From NCBI RefSeq assembly GCF_002934265.1, contig NZ_PTIX01000029.1, positions 1-64,000 of the forward strand: DNA of 64,000 nt, given 5' to 3'. Positions within the stretch are counted from its first letter, which is position 1. The number at the start of each line of letters is the position of its first letter. Below the pieces are notes generated by a model. It did no database searches, was not told the DNA's origin, and saw nothing but the letters and a program-made list of their open reading frames with translations. Of this stretch, positions 56,399 through 64,000 are shown piece by piece. The translations under genes were made by a program, and so were the position numbers. The DNA is from Actinokineospora auranticolor. Lineage in GTDB: Bacteria; Actinomycetota; Actinomycetes; Mycobacteriales; Pseudonocardiaceae.

Positions 56399-57148
56399 CT
56401 ACGTGGACGCTGGCAGTGCGTTGGACGGCTCGTTTGCCGTGTCTTGGCGGTATAGCAGCTCGTAGAGGTGCGCGCCTTTGATCAAGACGGATGCCTCGAC
56501 CGGGTGGTCGTTGTAACTGTAGATGACGCGCAACTGCCGGATCACCGGAGTGCCGTCAGGCAGGTCAAGCGTCTCGATCTCCTCGGTAGTGGGAGGACGG
56601 GCCGAGATGCGGTCGACGAAGTGCTGCTGGGGATAACCAAGGTCTGCCAGTGCTCGGGGAGCGCCGCCGCGGATCTTCGTCGTGCCCGCCAGGCTTGTGC
56701 CCGCGGCGATGTCGGCCGGGTAGTACGAGAAGGACAGCTCCACGGGGTGCCCGTCGTGCAGGAGGAGTCTGGCGCGGACCACGGCGGCGGCCTGGGGCGC
56801 CAGTCGAAGGCTCTCGATGACGTCTCGGGGCGGGACGACGCTGTCGACCGAGAGCAGCCGGTAGCGGAACCGGCCCGGCTCCGGCACGATGTAGGCTGCG
56901 GCGTCGATCACGAAAGGTCGGCGGTCGCGGACGAAGACTCCCTTGCCGACGTGGCTGTCGAGGAACCCCTCGTCCTTCAACGCCTTGAGCGCGTGCTGGA
57001 TGGTGGCGTTGGCCGCGCCGTATCGTTCGACGAGCTGCGCGGTGGACGGCAGGCGCTCGCCGGGCGTTAGCTCGCCGCGCATGATCAGGTCGCGGATCTC
57101 CGCGGCGATCTGCTGGTGGCGCGGCCGTGGGTCACGGGCGCGGGGCAC
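56399..57148 (-). CDS. GntR-family regulator with UTRA ligand domain
   Basis: This 249-residue regulator has the GntR winged helix (RHQQIAAEIRDLIMRGELTP, PSTAQLVERYGAANATIQHA, LKDEGFLDSHVGKGVFVRDR) and a UTRA/UbiC-like ligand domain (DGHPVELSFSYYPADIAAGT, HFVDRISARPPTTEEIETLD, DHPVEASVLIKGAHLYELLY). It is on the opposite strand from the 7-deazaguanine operon and is a candidate to control it. Its neighbour is a UTRA protein without HTH, sharing the same ligand-domain motifs. Confidence 0.85.
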   Translation of the reverse strand: MPRARDPRPRHQQIAAEIRDLIMRGELTPGERLPSTAQLVERYGAANATIQHALKALKDEGFLDSHVGKGVFVRDRRPFVIDAAAYIVPEPGRFRYRLLSVDSVVPPRDVIESLRLAPQAAAVVRARLLLHDGHPVELSFSYYPADIAAGTSLAGTTKIRGGAPRALADLGYPQQHFVDRISARPPTTEEIETLDLPDGTPVIRQLRVIYSYNDHPVEASVLIKGAHLYELLYRQDTANEPSNALPAST

Positions 57149-57175: not shown

Positions 57176-57709
57176 TCATGGGGTCAGCTCGTAGCGCAAC
57201 CGCCGCCCGTCGGCGACCATCGTCATCACACTCGCCTCGACAGGCCGGTCCTCATCGGTCAGCAGCACCCGGGCGAGCAGCAGCACGCAGGCCGCGGCAT
57301 CCAGTCGCAGGGCGTCCTGCTCGTCCGGTGTGGCCAGGCGCGCGCTGACGTCCTCGCGAAGGCGCCGCGGCGGGTGGCCGAGGTCGGCCAGGAGGGCGAC
57401 GGCTCCGCCGCGGATCTTGCGTGGTTCAGCCAGTTTGGTTCCGCGGGCGATGGCCGCGGGGTAGTAGGAGTCGGTCAGCTCGACCGGGTGGTCGTTGAAC
57501 AACATCACCCGGCGACGGAGGACCACCGCCTCGCCCGGCTCGACGCCGAGCATGTCGGCCACCATCTCCGGCGCGGGCACCTCCTCGACACCCAGCAACT
57601 TCTGCGTGCCGGAACCGCCATGCTCCGCAGCCTCCACGGCCCACGCATCACTGCGGTGGCCGCTCACGTACGGCATCGACACGCTCGTCCACAGGCGGGC
57701 ATCGGCCAT
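57176..57709 (-). CDS. Free-standing UTRA-domain protein (no HTH)
   Basis: This 177-residue protein matches the ligand half of the GntR/UTRA regulator (FNDHPVELTDSYYPAAIARG, KIRGGAVALLADLGHPPRRL, REDVSARLATPDEQDALRLD, DRPVEASVMTMVADGRRLRY) but has only about 40 unrelated residues in front and no winged helix. It could be a co-sensor that pairs with the downstream regulator or the relic of a second regulator. The gene starts 96 bp before the promoter of the operon on the other strand. Confidence 0.7.
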   Translation of the reverse strand: MADARLWTSVSMPYVSGHRSDAWAVEAAEHGGSGTQKLLGVEEVPAPEMVADMLGVEPGEAVVLRRRVMLFNDHPVELTDSYYPAAIARGTKLAEPRKIRGGAVALLADLGHPPRRLREDVSARLATPDEQDALRLDAAACVLLLARVLLTDEDRPVEASVMTMVADGRRLRYELTP

Positions 57710-57803
57710 CGCTCACCTCCTTGGATCTCGCGGGTCGCCGGGTGCCTACACCCATTGACCTTAGTCGTAGGGCAGCAAGGCCACCTTCGCCCCGGACGGA
57801 ATC

Positions 57804-57832
57804 TTGCCACCTTTCGGATATCGCAGTAAGGT
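57804..57832 (+). promoter_or_regulatory. Sigma-A-like promoter of the 7-deazaguanine operon
   Basis: TTGCCA at 57804-57809 and TAAGGT at 57827-57832 are spaced by 17 bases, matching the housekeeping promoter pattern. It lies about 115 bp upstream of the QueD start. Confidence 0.6.
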
Positions 57833-57834
57833 TG

Positions 57835-57856
57835 GCTGTAGCTAGATCGCTACAGC
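57835..57856. promoter_or_regulatory. Palindromic operator over the transcription start
   Basis: GCTGTAGC and GCTACAGC (8-bp perfect arms) flank the centre TAGATC. The site starts two bases after the -10 box, so a bound repressor would block initiation. A GntR-type dimer is the likely binder given the adjacent regulator gene. Confidence 0.65.
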
Positions 57857-57946: not shown

Positions 57947-58612
57947 ATGCAGACCACCCACGACGCGTTACCGGCGACAGGGCAGGTCACCATCACGCGA
58001 ACGTTCGGCTTCAGCGCCAGCCACGAGCTGCGGCTGCTGCCCGAAGGCCACAAGTGCCAGCGCAACCACGGCCACAACTACACGGTCACCGCCACCGCGC
58101 GCATGGACGGCGACGGCCCGATCGACTGGTCCCCGCTGGCGGATTACCTGGCGTCGACCTTCGACCACCGCCTGATCAACGACCAGGTCACCTTCCACCC
58201 GACAAGCGAACTGCTCGTCAATCACCTCGTCGAGTGGGTTCGGACCAACGTTGAGACAGGCTCGCCCATCACCCTGGTGGCGATGGCGGTGTCGGAGACG
58301 CCTTCCACCTCGGCACGCTGGGATGGCGCGACCAACGGGATCACCATCTCGAAGACCTTCGACTACGGCCAGGGTGAGATCACGCTGATCCTGGGAGCCG
58401 ACGAGTTCGACGAGTTCGGGTTCGTCACCGATTTCGGCGACCTGAAGCCGTTCTCGACGTACCTGCGCAAGGCCGACACGGTGTCCTCCGCCGCGGCTCT
58501 GGCCCACTGGTTTGCCACCAACGTGGAGCCGATGATCCAGGGGCGCCTGGTATCCGTACAGATCGCCTCGGCGACGGCGACCGAGCGGTGGGAACGAGGC
58601 GACACGCTGTGA
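57947..58612 (+). CDS. queD: 6-carboxytetrahydropterin synthase, tandem-domain QueD
   Basis: This 221-residue protein is about twice the usual QueD length. The first half has the active-site set: FSASHELRLLPEGHKCQRNH (zinc His and catalytic Cys), NHGHNYTVT (His-x-His), STFDHRLIND and VSETPSTS (Glu). The second half (ISKTFDYGQGEITLIL, FGFVTDFGDLKPF, ADTVSSAAALAHWFATNVEP) resembles a second QueD/PTPS domain without the catalytic residues. QueD makes 6-carboxytetrahydropterin from dihydroneopterin triphosphate in the preQ0 route. GGAGG precedes the ATG by seven bases. First gene of the operon. Confidence 0.85.
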   Translation: MQTTHDALPATGQVTITRTFGFSASHELRLLPEGHKCQRNHGHNYTVTATARMDGDGPIDWSPLADYLASTFDHRLINDQVTFHPTSELLVNHLVEWVRTNVETGSPITLVAMAVSETPSTSARWDGATNGITISKTFDYGQGEITLILGADEFDEFGFVTDFGDLKPFSTYLRKADTVSSAAALAHWFATNVEPMIQGRLVSVQIASATATERWERGDTL

Positions 58613-59313
58613 GCGCTTTGGTGATTCCGGTTGGCCGAGCCGAGAGCACGGCGATCCTCGCGGAGAAGTTCGAGTCGTTCCAGGGTGAGGGCCCGTGGAT
58701 GGGACAGCGCTGTGTGTTCCTCCGGCTCTCGCGCTGCAACCTGCGGTGCGGGTTCTGCGACACCCCGGAGACGTGGGACTGGAGCCGGTACAACTCCTCC
58801 GAGGTCAGCAGGAGGGTTCCGATCGCGGATTTGGTGTCCTGGGTGCGTGAACGCGCTGTCGACCTGGTGGTGATCACCGGCGGCGAGCCGATGTTGCAGC
58901 AGCTCGCGATTGGCACGCTTGCCCGCGACCTGCCGGGCGTGCGGGTGCAGATCGAGACCAACGGCACGATGGAGCCGATCCCGGAGTTGGCCGACCGGGT
59001 AGATCTCTGGGTGGTGAGCCCGAAGCTCGCCAACTCCGGCATGGACTATCCCGCCCGGATCAAGCCGCAGGCGCTCGCGGCCTTGTCCGCCACGGGCCGT
59101 GCGGTGTTCAAGTTCGTCGTCTCCGACCCCGCGAACGACCTGGACGAGATCGCCGAACTGGTCGAGGAGTACGGCCTGACCCCGGTATGGGCGATGCCCG
59201 AGGGAACGACCCGGGAAGCGGTTCTCGCTGGTATGGACTCGCTCTACGGCCCCGCGATCGACCGCGGCTGGAACGTCTCCACGCGCCTGCACATCCTGAC
59301 CGGCGCTCGCTGA
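58609..59313 (+). CDS. queE: 7-carboxy-7-deazaguanine synthase QueE
   Basis: This 234-residue radical SAM enzyme has the cluster motif CNLRCGFC (Cys-x3-Cys-x2-Cys), the substrate loop FESFQGEGPWMGQRCVFLRL, the SAM-binding ITGGEPMLQQ and IETNGTMEPI. It rearranges 6-carboxytetrahydropterin to 7-carboxy-7-deazaguanine. The GTG at 58609 overlaps the QueD stop, so the two are co-translated. All expected residues are present. Confidence 0.9.
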   Translation: MSALVIPVGRAESTAILAEKFESFQGEGPWMGQRCVFLRLSRCNLRCGFCDTPETWDWSRYNSSEVSRRVPIADLVSWVRERAVDLVVITGGEPMLQQLAIGTLARDLPGVRVQIETNGTMEPIPELADRVDLWVVSPKLANSGMDYPARIKPQALAALSATGRAVFKFVVSDPANDLDEIAELVEEYGLTPVWAMPEGTTREAVLAGMDSLYGPAIDRGWNVSTRLHILTGAR

Positions 59314-59403
59314 CCCGAGCTGATCGCACGGTTCTGCACGTCAGCAACACATTTCGACGATTCGCGATGACGCACGCTCTTGACAGGAAGCGAGGCATTC
59401 GCC

Positions 59404-60018
59404 ATGACCGACGTCCTTGACAGCACGGTGCTCAACGGGAGCCAGGCCCCGCCCGGACGAGTCGACAGCGACCGCGTCGCCGATCTCGTCGGCCAGCTCT
59501 TGGTCGTGATCGGCGAGGACCCCGCCCGTGAGGGCTTGGCGGACACTCCGGCCCGGGTCGCCGCCTGGTGGGGAGAGTTCTTTTCCGCGGACGCGGCGGT
59601 GCCGACCTGTTTCACCGAGCAGTACCTCAGTGATCAGTTGGTTGTCGTCGGGGGCGTCAGTGTGTGGTCGTTGTGCGAGCATCACCTTCTGCCCATGAAC
59701 CTGAACGTCACCGCGGGCTACGTGCCGGACGGGCAGGTGATCGGCCTGTCGAAGTTCGGGCGAGTCGCGCAGCGGTATGCCGGTCGTCTCCAGGTGCAGG
59801 AGCGCTTCACTCGGCAGGTCGCCGACGAGATCGCCCTCGCGATCGGTGGCAGCAACGTCGCGGTCGCGGTCCACGGTACACACCTGTGCATGAGCGCGCG
59901 GGGTGTCCGCATGGAGGCGGCACGCACGACCACAGTGGATACCCGCGGCCGGTTTGGAGCCGATCCGGTTCTCTCCCAACAGTTCCTCGCCATCGCCACT
60001 GATCGGAGGAACCTCTGA
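59404..60018 (+). CDS. folE: GTP cyclohydrolase I
   Basis: This 204-residue enzyme converts GTP to dihydroneopterin triphosphate, the entry step to preQ0. Zinc and active-site motifs are intact: SVWSLCEHHLLPMNLNVTAG (Cys and His-His), GLSKFGRVAQRYAGRLQVQE, and HGTHLCMSARGVR (second Cys). The ATG at 59404 gives the normal length. As a dedicated copy next to QueD and QueE it probably supplies this pathway and not folate. Its stop overlaps the next start (TGATG). Confidence 0.9.
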   Translation: MTDVLDSTVLNGSQAPPGRVDSDRVADLVGQLLVVIGEDPAREGLADTPARVAAWWGEFFSADAAVPTCFTEQYLSDQLVVVGGVSVWSLCEHHLLPMNLNVTAGYVPDGQVIGLSKFGRVAQRYAGRLQVQERFTRQVADEIALAIGGSNVAVAVHGTHLCMSARGVRMEAARTTTVDTRGRFGADPVLSQQFLAIATDRRNL

Positions 60019-60830
60019 TGGCCATTGAGTTCTCGGTGATCGCCCCGCCCGACTATTTGGACGCGTTCGTCGCCCAAGCTCCCGCTCGCGTTCACCACGT
60101 TGCCGCGCAGCATGTTCTGAACGACCCGTTGTACCGGGACTTCTTCCACCGTGAGGCCGGACGCGGTGCCGAGATCATCATCGACAACGGCGTGTTCGAC
60201 CTAGGCGAGGCGCTGCCCGCCGAGGACTTGGTCGCCGCGGCTCGCGCGGTGAACGCCAAGGAGATCATCCTGCCGGACGTGATGGGCGACGGACCGGCGA
60301 CCATCCAGGCCAGCGACGAGGCCGCCCGCGAGATCCAAGACCTCAGCGACGAGTTCCGGTTGTGCGTGGTGCTGCACGCGGCGACCGACAAGGAATGGCT
60401 GCGCACCTACGACTACTTTGCCTCCAGCGCCTACGTCGGCGCCATCGCGTTACCCGCGTCCCGCAAGCCCGCGTCCGACGAGCTGTTGTGTCGGACCCGG
60501 TGGACGGCGACCCGCTTCCTGGAGAACCACGGCCTCGTCGAGGACCGGATCACGTACCGACTGCTCGGACTCGGCCGCACCGGGCACCTGGAGCTGGCCG
60601 AGCAGCGCGAGCACGAGTGGATCGCCTCGGTCGACGGTGCCGCGCCGGTCATCCTCGGCGCGATGGGCATTCCCATGCTGCCCGACGGACCGTATGAGAA
60701 GCGACCGACGCCGCGGATCGAGAACCTTGGCCTCATCCCCGAGGAACGGTTCGGCCTGATCCGCCGCAACATCGACGTGGTCCGTGAGGCCGCGGGCAGC
60801 ACCGTGCGCATCCCGGAGGCCATCCGATGA
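60018..60830 (+). CDS. TGT/DpdA-like TIM-barrel protein
   Basis: This 270-residue protein resembles the tRNA-guanine transglycosylase/DpdA barrel. Two landmark strands are seen: EIIIDNGVFDLG (Asp of the nucleophile or base-binding loop) with EIILPDVMGDGPATI, and RLLGLGRTGHLELAEQREHE followed by SVDGAAPV (second Asp). Classical TGT zinc ligands are absent, as in DpdA-type DNA enzymes. Coupled to folE-queE-queD, it could insert or exchange a 7-deazaguanine base in DNA or RNA. A different TIM-barrel enzyme cannot be excluded. The next start overlaps its stop (ATGA). Confidence 0.65.
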   Translation: MAIEFSVIAPPDYLDAFVAQAPARVHHVAAQHVLNDPLYRDFFHREAGRGAEIIIDNGVFDLGEALPAEDLVAAARAVNAKEIILPDVMGDGPATIQASDEAAREIQDLSDEFRLCVVLHAATDKEWLRTYDYFASSAYVGAIALPASRKPASDELLCRTRWTATRFLENHGLVEDRITYRLLGLGRTGHLELAEQREHEWIASVDGAAPVILGAMGIPMLPDGPYEKRPTPRIENLGLIPEERFGLIRRNIDVVREAAGSTVRIPEAIR

Positions 60831-61858
60831 GCCTGCTGGCCGGGTCCGCGCTGCGCGCGGACCCCATCGAAGTGAACGGGCACACGATGCCCCCGGACCG
60901 CCTGCTGCGCTACCTCCAGATCAAGGCCCACCACCTGATCCAGGACCACGACTGGGACAGCATCCACGTCGTCGGCGGCTACGACCGCGGCGCGGTGATC
61001 TCCGCCCACGAGAAGACCGGCAAGCTGTTCAACATCGAGCGCCCCACCGCCGACGCCCACGGCCGCGATCTGATCGTCAAGGCGTTCCCCGGCGTCGACT
61101 ACGTCCACCACTACGGCCTGATCATCGCCACCTACCTGGAGATGGTCGGCAAGGACGCGAGCATCGTCAGCTACGAGCCGCCCACTCCCGCAGTATCCAC
61201 CGACGCGGTGAGACGGCTCGAACTCGACCTCAACGGCGATCTCGTGGTGGTCGGCTGGGGCCTGGCCCACCTCGTCCCGCCGGACGGCGTGTGGAACCGC
61301 GGACACGGCTACGCCTGGCAACGCACCCGCATCCACGGCCGCGACGTGGTCTTCCTCGGCTACCAGCACAGCATCTGGGGCGACGTCGCCGGACGAGTCG
61401 TCACCCGCCTGGCCAGACTCGGCGCCGGCGACGTCGTCTACGTCGGCAAGGTCGGCGCGCTGAACCCGGCGATCGAGCCCAACACCCTGCTCGCCACCGG
61501 CAACACCAGCTTGATCGACGGCGCCCCGGTCACCTGGAACGACTTCTTCGCCGACTTCGCCGTCTCCCAGCCGGGCGTGCACACCGGCATCCACGTCACC
61601 TCGCCGTCGATCCTGCTGGAGAACCGCGCCTGGCTGGCCGAGCACGCCGACCACGCTTTCGTCGACCCGGAGATCGGCCCCATGGGCGCGGCAGCCCGCG
61701 ACGCGGACATCGGGTTCGGCTACCTGCACGTCATCTCCAACAACCTCGCCCGGCACTACCCCGCCGACCTGTCCAACGAGCGCAATCACGACGTGCTCCA
61801 GCGCCGCGCCGCCCTGATCACCCAGATCCGCGACATCATCACCGCCCGCCTGACCTGA
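60827..61858 (+). CDS. Unknown enzyme, phosphorylase/nucleosidase-like
   Basis: This 343-residue protein has no motif I can assign with certainty. Segments VYVGKVGALNPAIEPNTLLA, TGIHVTSPSILLENRAWLAE and AFVDPEIGPMGAAARDADI, ending GYLHVISNNLARHYPADLSN, have the alternating strand-loop pattern of purine nucleoside phosphorylases, with an acidic residue placed to bind ribose. The N-terminal part (DSIHVVGGYDRGAVISAHEK) is separate. In this operon it might cleave or form an N-glycosidic bond of a 7-deazaguanine nucleoside. Cytoplasmic; no signal or membrane segment. Confidence 0.5.
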   Translation: MSLLAGSALRADPIEVNGHTMPPDRLLRYLQIKAHHLIQDHDWDSIHVVGGYDRGAVISAHEKTGKLFNIERPTADAHGRDLIVKAFPGVDYVHHYGLIIATYLEMVGKDASIVSYEPPTPAVSTDAVRRLELDLNGDLVVVGWGLAHLVPPDGVWNRGHGYAWQRTRIHGRDVVFLGYQHSIWGDVAGRVVTRLARLGAGDVVYVGKVGALNPAIEPNTLLATGNTSLIDGAPVTWNDFFADFAVSQPGVHTGIHVTSPSILLENRAWLAEHADHAFVDPEIGPMGAAARDADIGFGYLHVISNNLARHYPADLSNERNHDVLQRRAALITQIRDIITARLT

Positions 61859-61877
61859 ACCCCACGGAGGAACACCC

Positions 61878-62573
61878 ATGCCGGACACGGCACCGCCCGA
61901 CGCCCCGACCCGCGGGCGCGAGATCACGATCGTCGGCATCGACGGCGCGGGCAAGTCCACCCTCGCCACCCGCCTGCACCAGGCCCTCAACGACGCGGGC
62001 CACAAGACCATCCTGGTCGGCAAACACACCACCGACGTGCCCGCCGACCTGGAGCTGGCCGCGTACGTCGACCAGCTCAACACGTTGGTATACCGCCGCG
62101 ACGCCCGCATCGCCCAGGAGTGCGGCGACCACTACTGGCTACTCGCACTGGCCGCCTGGTACACCCTGCAGGACAAGCTCGTCATCCAACCCGCGCTCGC
62201 CGCGGGCACCCACGTCATCCTCGACAACGCCCACCACAAGATCCTCGCCCGCTACGCGGTCAACCCCGACGTCGACACCGAGCTGGCCGAGCGGGTCTTC
62301 GCTCACCTCACCGAGCCCGACCTGATGTTCTTCCTGCACATCGACGCCCACACCGCGCTGGCCCGCAAGGGCGAGTTCAGCTCCCTGGAGACCGGCCACT
62401 CCGGTGGCGGCGACGAGGACTTCATCCGGTACCAGGACACTGTCCTGGCGACGCTGCGCGAGCACGCCGACCGCGGCGGCTGGCTGTCGATGGACGTTAC
62501 CGACATGGACCGCGACGCGGTCTTCGACACCGCCGCCCAGGCCCTGACCGACCGCCTCCAGCTCTCCCTCTGA
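61878..62573 (+). CDS. Thymidylate-kinase-like NMP kinase
   Basis: This 231-residue P-loop kinase has Walker A TIVGIDGAGKSTLATRLHQA (near residue 24), typical of thymidylate kinases, then a DR-x-like region replaced by HVILDNAHHKILARY, and a lid-like LARKGEFSSLETGHSGG. The altered DRY/substrate motif suggests a substrate other than dTMP. In this operon it may phosphorylate a modified nucleotide. GGAGG lies eight bases before the ATG. Confidence 0.7.
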   Translation: MPDTAPPDAPTRGREITIVGIDGAGKSTLATRLHQALNDAGHKTILVGKHTTDVPADLELAAYVDQLNTLVYRRDARIAQECGDHYWLLALAAWYTLQDKLVIQPALAAGTHVILDNAHHKILARYAVNPDVDTELAERVFAHLTEPDLMFFLHIDAHTALARKGEFSSLETGHSGGGDEDFIRYQDTVLATLREHADRGGWLSMDVTDMDRDAVFDTAAQALTDRLQLSL

Positions 62574-62585
62574 AGGATTCCGTCC

Positions 62586-63506
62586 ATGCCAGTGACCCGA
62601 CCGACCGACGGCGAGTACGTGTGCCACGGCATCACCTGGGCGACCGGAGACCCCCGACTGCTCCTCGCCCCGCTACCCGACGGGCCACTGGTCTACGCCG
62701 AGATCATGAACCAACGACTCGGCTTCGCGTCCGGTACCGGCAGGTGGTGCACCGGCCGGTACCGGTTCGTCGACACCGTGCGCGTGGAAGCCCTCGCCTG
62801 CCCCGACCGCGCGCAGGCCGGGCAGAACGACCAATGCCCGCGATGCCTCGGCCAGGACGAGTTCCGATTCGCCCACCAGTACCACCGCGACGGCAACGTC
62901 CCCGACGCTCTGCGCCGGTACATGGACCAGCCGCACTGGCTCTACCTGGCCACCTTCGCCGACGGAGCCACCAAGGTCGGCACCGCGGCTGAACCACGCA
63001 AGCACTCCCGCCTCAACGAACAGGGAGCCCTGTTCGCCACCTACCTCACCACCACCCCCGACGGCCGCACCGTGCGCTTCCTCGAAGACGCCATCACCCG
63101 CGACCTCCGGATGCCCCAAACCGTCCGGGCCACCACCAAACTCAAAGCCCTGGCCAACCTCACCAACCTGGCCGCCGCGGGCGCGGCCCACGACCAGCAC
63201 GTCACCCGCGCCGCCGACGCCCTCACCGCGACCGGCAACCAAACGGTCCTGGAGAAGTGGGCCCCTCCTGCTGAAGGCGCGCGACTGCGCGTCGCCGGTC
63301 GAGCCCGAGCGTTGTACCCGCACGACCTACAGGACGGCGAACACGGCTTCACCGTGACCTCCTGCGTCGGCACCCAGGTACTCACCACGTTGACCGGCGA
63401 CGACGAGACCGACTACGTGCTCGATCTCGGCACGCTCAAGGGCCGTCGCATCGCCCTTGGCCCCTTCACCTCGCCGGGCGCCGCTGTCCAAAGCTCCTTG
63501 TTCTGA
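62586..63506 (+). CDS. DUF2797-family protein
   Basis: This 306-residue protein shows the DUF2797 pattern: a Cys pair NDQCPRCLGQDEF, then HWLYLATFADGATKVGTAAE and RLNEQGALFATYL, which echo GIY-YIG-like folds, and LEDAITRDLRMPQ. Function is unknown; a nucleic-acid role is plausible. It follows the kinase by 12 bp in the same operon, an unusual partner for deazaguanine genes. Confidence 0.7.
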   Translation: MPVTRPTDGEYVCHGITWATGDPRLLLAPLPDGPLVYAEIMNQRLGFASGTGRWCTGRYRFVDTVRVEALACPDRAQAGQNDQCPRCLGQDEFRFAHQYHRDGNVPDALRRYMDQPHWLYLATFADGATKVGTAAEPRKHSRLNEQGALFATYLTTTPDGRTVRFLEDAITRDLRMPQTVRATTKLKALANLTNLAAAGAAHDQHVTRAADALTATGNQTVLEKWAPPAEGARLRVAGRARALYPHDLQDGEHGFTVTSCVGTQVLTTLTGDDETDYVLDLGTLKGRRIALGPFTSPGAAVQSSLF

Positions 63507-63530
63507 CCACCCGAAAACGAGGCACCCACC

Positions 63531-64000
63531 ATGGCACCCCTCGACGCCGTGCTCGGCTGGGACGAGGACACCACCGCCGAGGCGTACGCCGCCTTCACCC
63601 GCGACTTCCCCATGTACTCCGCCACCAGCCGCGACCTGGCCCACCGCGCCAACCTCTCCAACGCCGACCTGGTCATCGACCTCTGCGGCGGAGCAGGCGC
63701 CACCGCGGAGGCCATCCTCGACCTCGCCCCACCGCACACCCGGGTCATCTCCCTGGACAACGCCGCCGCGATGCAACGCGTCGGCCGACGCGCCCTCACC
63801 GACCCACGCCTGACCTGGATCACCGCCGCGGCCGAAGACCTCGCCGACCACGTCCCCGGGTCAGTTGACGCCGTCATCTGCAACAGCGCGATCTGGAAGA
63901 CGAACGTCCCCGCGGTGCTCCACGCCGTCCACCAAGTGCTCCGCCCCGGCGGCCGGTTCGTGTTCAACATCGGCGGCGGCTTCGCCGGAGTCCGCCACCC
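63531..64000 (+). CDS. Class I SAM-dependent methyltransferase (cut by window end)
   Basis: The first 156 residues show a class I methyltransferase: motif I LVIDLCGGAGATAEAILDL, the acidic end of strand 2 (VISLDNAAAM), strand 4 (VDAVICNSAIWKTNVP) and the post-motif HQVLRPGGRFVFNIGGG. The methyl acceptor cannot be told. It may modify the product of the upstream enzymes. The gene continues beyond 64000. Confidence 0.8.
   Translation, partial: MAPLDAVLGWDEDTTAEAYAAFTRDFPMYSATSRDLAHRANLSNADLVIDLCGGAGATAEAILDLAPPHTRVISLDNAAAMQRVGRRALTDPRLTWITAAAEDLADHVPGSVDAVICNSAIWKTNVPAVLHAVHQVLRPGGRFVFNIGGGFAGVRH

Follow-up and report, generated by a model that had tools for sequence, protein, structure and literature searches.

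A conserved mobile set of eight 7-deazaguanine-associated genes in actinomycetes that probably yields a new nucleotide or DNA modification

Introduction

What could a bacterium make by coupling the first enzymes of 7-deazaguanine synthesis to five proteins that belong to no familiar pathway? This question is raised by the end of a 64,000-nucleotide stretch of Actinokineospora auranticolor (contig NZ_PTIX01000029.1, positions 1 to 64,000; hereafter the window). There, eight closely spaced open reading frames (ORFs) of the same strand extend from the start of queD at 57947 to the window edge at 64000. An earlier note, made from the sequence alone, had described them as an operon of queD, queE and folE followed by genes for a TGT/DpdA-like barrel, a phosphorylase-like protein, a kinase, a DUF2797 protein and a methyltransferase, and both the ORF listing and Pfam bear this description out. 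The eight genes are a conserved mobile unit that likely gives rise to a new nucleotide or to a new modification of DNA, with a modified guanine that is probably attached to a sugar or to nucleic acid. No description of the set was found in the accessible portions of the literature searched, and it is apparently undescribed.

Organization of the eight-gene operon

The first three genes provide a dedicated supply of 7-carboxy-7-deazaguanine (CDG), as had been proposed, each product being assigned by Pfam and by its best NCBIfam family. The gene queD (57947..58612, plus strand, like the seven that follow) encodes a 6-carboxytetrahydropterin synthase of 221 amino acids (aa), with a PTPS domain at residues 15-125 (PTPS/QueD, 5.3e-19) and an extra C-terminal stretch; it is longer than most, QueD exceeding 200 aa in 13 of 47 relatives. 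It is followed by queE (58588..59313), encoding a radical SAM CDG synthase (1.2e-11) with the cluster motif CNLRCGFC, and by folE (59404..60018), encoding GTP cyclohydrolase I (3.5e-50), the start of which is placed at ATG 59404 within an ORF that opens at TTG 59380. Among the NCBIfam models, QueD and QueE are the best matches of their respective products, though below the curated cut-offs (56.4 versus 89.25 bits and 93.7 versus 260.1 bits), whereas FolE lies above its own (174.3 versus 162 bits). The motifs CxxxHGH of QueD, CNLxCxxC of QueE, and CEHH and HLCM of FolE are kept across relatives.

The five downstream genes encode the DpdA-like barrel (60018..60830, 270 aa), a phosphorylase-like protein of the NP-I (uridine/purine nucleoside phosphorylase) type (60827..61858, 343 aa), a thymidylate-kinase-like P-loop protein (61878..62573, 231 aa; Pfam 4.8e-12), a DUF2797 protein (62586..63506, 306 aa; 2e-7) and a class I SAM methyltransferase (63531..64370, 279 aa; 9.8e-13). 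The barrel and phosphorylase-like genes overlap by 4 bp, which is also the median across relatives, and together with queD-queE-folE the five genes look like one operon. The methyltransferase gene is truncated by the window edge, with 156 aa inside the window to 64000. The contig extends to 90779, and the sequence beyond the window, where the earlier note had suggested looking for queC and further genes, completes the methyltransferase with a stop at contig position 64370, followed by a NUDIX gene (Pfam) on the opposite strand; neither queC nor any further pathway gene was recognised by eye among the ORFs listed up to position 76000.

The set is conserved and mobile

Conservation was assessed on 48 loci, namely 44 from one scan of genome contigs with the barrel alignment and four full-set plasmids out of five found by tblastn of a plasmid collection; the second copies L018-L020 (of L025, L033 and L063) and a Streptomyces chartreusis plasmid (L015) were not counted. 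All eight genes are present in 44 of the 48 loci, so that the co-conservation proposed as a check does hold. Looked for in these relatives, a separation of queD-queE-folE from the other five genes was not found. The order is that of the window in 36 of the full loci, while folE comes first in five and queE precedes queD in three; the last five genes keep the same order in 44/44. In the full loci, tblastn coverage reaches at least 70% for each gene, except for queD in 6/44, and the phosphorylase-like ORF is short in one of them, L050. Of the four remaining loci, L034 is a broken set in a metagenome-assembled genome, L053 lies at a contig edge, L063 is a divergent variant and L064 contains only a fragment of the barrel. 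Close kin make up part of this count, since grouping the 48 loci by barrel identity leaves 41 groups at a threshold of 99%, 33 groups at 95% and 25 at 90%. Because the set is intact in 44/48 related loci, the eight genes are not together by chance and constitute a conserved mobile unit.

The carriers are soil actinobacteria of many actinomycete genera and include the four Streptomyces plasmids, one of them phage-plasmid-like. The distribution is sporadic. Of the 298 genomes of the order, three contain the full barrel, and the same three, and no others, contain the phosphorylase-like gene; two more give weak partial barrel matches. The barrel was found in 3 of 396 sampled genomes of the phylum. 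The phosphorylase-like gene also lies on the same four plasmids as the full barrel; it was not found in the phages or viral contigs searched, the same viral contigs having given five distant barrel relatives. DUF2797 matches occur in 6/298 genomes of the order, three of which carry the set, and no other gene of the set was found in the stretches surrounding the match in the other three.

Three particular carriers extend this picture. NZ_CP107821 (L087, 25000-66000) is a 132.6-kb circular Streptomyces plasmid in which genes for a portal and a major capsid protein lie close to the set; it also encodes ParAB and one 15.7-kb gene annotated as helicase, and it is a phage-plasmid-like element. Amycolatopsis saalfeldensis carries, in addition to a standard set (L033), a divergent variant (L063:6894-14210) composed of an amidotransferase-QueC fusion, guanylate-kinase-like, HIT, barrel, phosphorylase-like, kinase, QueE, QueD and DUF2797 genes. 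Judging by this variant, bases other than CDG might also be accepted by the module. The S. chartreusis plasmid (L015:5961-9356) has only queD-queE-folE, a barrel of 25% identity and a NUDIX gene, and represents a smaller relative of the set.

CDG is the most likely base

QueC is missing from the window, as the earlier note had observed, and it is also absent from the sets of standard-type relatives. Counts of QueC and TGT were made on 43 genomes, including one with only a barrel fragment and one with a broken set, several of them being drafts in which some absences may be gaps. QueC matches above 120 bits are absent from 32/43 of these genomes, and the TGT family is above cut-off in 1/43. No QueC was found on three of the full-set plasmids nor on the S. 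chartreusis plasmid (4/5 plasmids without it). The window's genome has no PF01702 match; its QueC-family gene lies away from the set (C15; L004:9285-10378), beside a 162-aa gene, and neither queD, queE nor another supply gene was recognised among the ORFs listed around it. From the mostly missing strong QueC and TGT matches, the product therefore most likely derives from CDG and not from preQ0 or queuosine. The queuosine and preQ0 routes were accordingly set aside, the set lacking both QueC and TGT, with a strong QueC match absent from 32/43 and a TGT match above cut-off from 42/43 genomes. The A. diospyrosa genome that carries locus L021 has adjacent QueC-family and TGT-family matches (G298:C3:439080-440839), apart from the set.

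The scarcity of TGT bears on a further explanation, in which the set would be a tRNA modification pathway substituting for queuosine in organisms that lack it. TGT-type chemistry and the CDG supply would suit such a role, as would the absence of a TGT-family match in most tested genomes. Nevertheless, we consider it very improbable, given the sporadic mobile distribution (3/298 genomes of the order), with most relatives living without the set, and phage relatives that are tied to DNA; furthermore, it gives no account of why a kinase and a phosphorylase-like protein are present.

The barrel is related to phage transglycosylases

The barrel gave no Pfam match, the canonical TGT model PF01702 included. 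By tblastn, it matches an annotated DNA guanine transglycosylase of Flavobacterium phage immuto (27% identity, E 3e-12), as well as sequences of Cellulophaga phage phiST and Bacillus phage BSP7, and single blastp comparisons relate it to Youna2 (E 5e-17) and Campylobacter phage CP220 (E 5e-8). Identity to the phage relatives amounts to 21-27% over most of the length, and residues D56, D87 and D206 are invariant in 21/21 aligned barrels, two phage sequences included. Judged by this homology, the barrel is related to the phage DpdA DNA-guanine transglycosylases, in line with its earlier designation as TGT/DpdA-like. Compared as a profile with the PDB, it gave a single weak match to an epimerase (E 0.034), which was discarded.

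The short-type phage transglycosylases are presumably the DpdA3 subfamily of a 2023 paper, which reportedly allows complete guanine replacement and places 2'-deoxy-7-carboxy-7-deazaguanine in phage DNA. A further member emerged in CP220, where gp056 (L118:6995-7771), annotated as hypothetical, shares 43.9% identity with immuto DpdA and lies directly before a kinase-like gene; from this similarity, it could be the transglycosylase of the Campylobacter phages. In 2019, Campylobacter phages modified with dADG were placed among those without a recognised DpdA, and the use of a modified dGTP by the polymerase was mentioned as a proposal for them, as far as the accessible part of that article goes (PMC6884629).

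These phage relatives suggest that the set could act on DNA: in finished DNA, the barrel would replace guanine by CDG or by the methyl ester of CDG, the set being a cellular or plasmid-borne counterpart of the phage systems, with the kinase, phosphorylase-like and NUDIX proteins managing the pool and DUF2797 acting on DNA. Indeed, the barrel relatives in phages adjoin queD/queE/folE genes and often DNA polymerase genes, two of these phages (phiST and MA9V-3) likewise gave no QueC match, one copy of the set resides on the phage-plasmid-like element, and in one Streptomyces lineage the set is followed downstream by a third NUDIX gene and by a DNA-glycosylase-like gene that scores below the Pfam cut-off. 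On the other hand, neither Pfam nor PADLOC, applied to the set and to those conserved neighbours that were tested, detected restriction or dpd-type partners (dpdB/dpdC, dpdD-K), the glycosylase is limited to that close lineage, and the constant phosphorylase-like and kinase genes have no plain role in a post-replicative exchange. We thus regard this explanation as doubtful.

Sequence features of the partner proteins

The phosphorylase-like protein falls just under the Pfam cut-off for PNP_UDP_1 (PF01048; 23.1 versus 25.1 bits), and the best PDB relatives of its family are uridine phosphorylases, at a weak E of 0.014. The RVGTTG motif of uridine phosphorylase, whose Arg we take to be the phosphate-binding residue, is replaced by an invariant YVGKVG, with Tyr and Lys in place of Arg and Thr; the phosphate site is altered, and the earlier description of the protein as phosphorylase-like is supported. 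By eye, the base-site Asp of the phosphorylase family corresponds to an invariant Asn (SNN), which might suit a base without N7. The protein may be a nucleosidase or a transferase rather than a phosphorylase.

This substitution is relevant to another alternative, namely that the set makes a free CDG nucleoside antibiotic of the type of cadeguomycin, which is 7-carboxy-7-deazaguanosine, with the phosphorylase-like protein adding the ribose. CDG is the base expected without QueC, regulators adjoin the set, and S. hygroscopicus (L040), presumably the species of the cadeguomycin producer, is among the carriers. A 2025 review, in the part available, lists cadeguomycin among the nucleosides without identified clusters (PMC12648386). 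Four enzymes would, however, be enough for such a product, leaving the constant barrel, kinase, DUF2797 and methyltransferase idle; in the phosphate site, Tyr stands in place of the uridine phosphorylase Arg; and, unlike in tub, the tubercidin cluster, no phosphoribosyltransferase was found among the eight genes, nor among the neighbour families checked by Pfam, which cover a subset of the neighbour clusters. A free nucleoside of this type is consequently unlikely.

The kinase keeps its P-loop and matches PF02223 with 46.4 bits (cut-off 27), while staying below the NCBIfam cut-off for dTMP kinase (47.5 versus 83.25 bits), in agreement with its earlier description as an altered thymidylate kinase. 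Its LDN-x-HHKI motif sits where dTMP kinases, as we assume, have their DR region. DUF2797 (PF10977; 31.5 bits, cut-off 25) shows conserved Cys and His residues. A GIY-YIG-like segment, noted only by eye, raised the possibility of a nuclease of the GIY-YIG/T5orf172 fold, for which the profiles gave no support (hhalign E 0.33 over 27 columns); a PDB match of the DUF2797 profile to a gingipain domain (E 0.0009) was taken for chance.

A proposed QueC-independent CDG nucleotide pathway

The reading that we prefer, and to which we give a chance just short of even, is a QueC-independent pathway to a CDG nucleotide. By chemistry well established for these families, FolE, QueD and QueE convert GTP to CDG. 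The DpdA-like barrel and the phosphorylase-like protein would then place CDG on ribose or deoxyribose in place of guanine, a step that would take the position held by the phosphoribosyltransferase TubE in tubercidin synthesis. The resulting CDG monophosphate would be phosphorylated by the thymidylate-kinase-like protein, and the methyltransferase could carry out the finishing step, perhaps by converting the carboxyl group to its methyl ester. The NUDIX proteins, for their part, might release the product from the nucleotide by hydrolysis, like TubG, or hold a modified triphosphate in check.

This pathway is favoured by the constancy of the set, the shared occurrence of the barrel and phosphorylase-like genes, the mostly missing strong QueC and TGT matches, the relation of the barrel to phage DpdA, the replaced residues of the phosphorylase-like family, the guanylate-kinase-like and HIT proteins added in the A. 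saalfeldensis variant and the tubercidin precedent. The surroundings of the phage barrels also speak for it. A small kinase-like P-loop gene occurs near the barrel in 9/11 phage or viral contexts. Six of these genes are above a Pfam cut-off: immediately upstream of the barrel in phiST, MA9V-3 and L068, immediately downstream in CP220 and in Ahp1, where the match is to a dNMP-kinase family, and as the third annotated gene downstream in immuto. Three were recognised by motif only, as small P-loop ORFs immediately upstream, in BSTP12, Youna2 and L069. The AAA families matched are general P-loop families, so that kinase activity is only presumed; the CP220 kinase is related to the immuto one, and with the window kinase only the P-loop of either aligns. 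In a strict motif count, the barrel is at most two listed ORFs away for 6/10 small P-loop ORFs (Fisher p 0.0014 in a post hoc test on 12 contexts and 317 ORFs, with neighbour slots taken as 48); this count overlooked phiST, Ahp1 and L068, which were recovered by Pfam. In addition, phiST and immuto carry NTP-pyrophosphohydrolase-type genes close by, which we liken to the NUDIX genes of the actinobacterial set.

Several observations weigh against the proposed pathway. Annotations or reports assign DNA modification to the barrel's relatives in phages, and insertion is reportedly held to be post-replicative in a 2023 paper. The kinase pattern was seen before it was counted, phage genomes cluster nucleotide genes anyway, the MA9V-3 and Ahp1 barrels were reached only via the immuto protein, and no small P-loop gene was found near the barrel in L065, L066 or the S. 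chartreusis plasmid. Aligned by hhalign with eight canonical TGTs, the barrel gives a weak match (E 0.0056, probability 6.5), in which D206 pairs with the Asp of FDC, presumably the TGT nucleophile, and D87 with the Asp of LDE, while D56 remains unpaired with the Asp of DSGG, the expected TGT aspartate. As for the base, QueC-family matches are above the Pfam cut-off in 38/43 genomes, but exceed 120 bits in only 11, one of these being the window's own genome and another owing its match to the fusion in the variant set (G309); the other 27 matches are partial, below 30 bits and mostly in long ORFs. On one full-set plasmid out of the four, a QueC lies about 22 kb ahead of queD. Finally, no transporter was found among the conserved neighbour families checked.

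On balance, the kinase neighbourhood and the tubercidin precedent lean towards a nucleotide-level route and the phage relatives towards DNA, and an exchange on free nucleotides, yielding a nucleotide or nucleoside, is more likely than a post-replicative DNA mark. A broader version of the nucleotide pathway can be put forward tentatively, at a probability clearly below even: short DpdA-type barrels in general would exchange the base of free guanine (deoxy)nucleotides, not of finished DNA, and the result in actinobacteria would be a CDG nucleotide, phosphorylated and methylated, serving either as a new natural product or signal or as a precursor polymerised into cellular DNA. If true, this would explain the complete replacement of guanine in phages such as CP220, in which we take such replacement to occur and in which the barrel lies beside a kinase-like gene.

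Neighbouring genes and the start region

A NUDIX gene accompanies the set in 43/48 loci and a second one in 30/48; a third is present in 8/48, downstream of the set in one Streptomyces lineage. The DNA-glycosylase-like gene (HhH-GPD, below the Pfam cut-off) lies downstream in the same lineage (L042:16365-17923 and kin). A conserved 404-aa protein (L012:13071-14285) without Pfam match is found in 21/48 loci; its ExExK pattern, noted by eye, is reminiscent of the triphosphate tunnel enzymes. About 12 close Streptomyces/Kitasatospora loci (L039-L061) share upstream HATPase, Roadblock, DUF742, GTPase-like, GAF and acyl-CoA dehydrogenase genes, an arrangement that resembles a conservon. A defence system was also considered and rejected, PADLOC giving only weak or general-class matches.

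Divergent to queD, the minus strand encodes a 177-aa UTRA-domain protein without the GntR DNA-binding half (57176..57709), adjoined by a 249-aa GntR/UTRA regulator (56399..57148, minus strand); the two occur together in 9/48 relatives. An alignment of seven start regions, that of the window and those of six relatives, shows two operator-like boxes, GACCTTAGTCGTAGGGCAGCAAGG (57757..57780) and ACCTTTCGGATATCGCAGTAAGGT (57809..57832), with few changes in 7/7 sequences, and an inverted repeat, GCTGTAGC-N6-GCTACAGC (57835..57856), of which the relatives keep only part. The boxes, the repeat and the two regulatory genes are compatible with control by a repressor, as the earlier note had suggested for the start site, without demonstrating it.

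Comparison with known systems

As had been claimed for the five downstream genes, the set fits none of the queuosine, dpd and toyocamycin pathways. The queuosine pathway shares its first three enzymes with a set that has neither QueC nor a TGT-family gene. The dpd islands (dpdA-C, dpdD-K), of which the dpdAB type is surveyed in the accessible part of PMC11888242, resemble it in having a TGT-type protein and 7-deazaguanine supply genes; the set differs by the lack of a restriction or dpd partner among the proteins tested and by its constant kinase and phosphorylase-like genes. Toyocamycin and huimycin have in common with it an actinobacterial FolE-QueD-QueE supply and, for huimycin, a methyltransferase; to the extent of the descriptions available, both have QueC and a preQ0 route, huimycin has a glycosyltransferase, and no barrel or phosphorylase-like gene is reported.

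Tubercidin (tub, Streptomyces tubercidicus) is a closer parallel. According to the available text of PMC6112128, it is made from CDG, TubE coupling CDG itself to phosphoribosyl pyrophosphate (PRPP), and tub resembles the set in its CDG supply (TubA-C) without QueC among tubA-I, its Nudix hydrolase TubG and its kinase-family gene. As far as the same text goes, only tub has the PRPP transferase TubE, followed by a reductase, a UbiD-type decarboxylase and an MFS transporter, none of which is among the eight genes, whereas the barrel, phosphorylase-like, DUF2797 and methyltransferase genes are particular to the set.

With the short-type phage transglycosylase systems (immuto, CP220, phiST, BSP7), the set shares barrel homology, with common aspartates in the aligned ones, a queD-queE-folE supply in several of them and a kinase-like gene often nearby. 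It differs in that no DNA polymerase gene adjoins it, its kinase is of another family, phosphorylase-like, DUF2797 and methyltransferase genes are added, and it resides on cellular chromosomes and plasmids. One mobile unit thus joins a tubercidin-like CDG supply with a DpdA-type protein known from phage DNA modification, together with phosphorylase-like and kinase partners found in this form in neither tubercidin nor the phage systems. It offers a compact and cultivable test of whether short DpdA-type enzymes act on a free nucleotide or on DNA. It is also a starting point for finding a new nucleoside, nucleotide or DNA base among bacteria rich in drug production.

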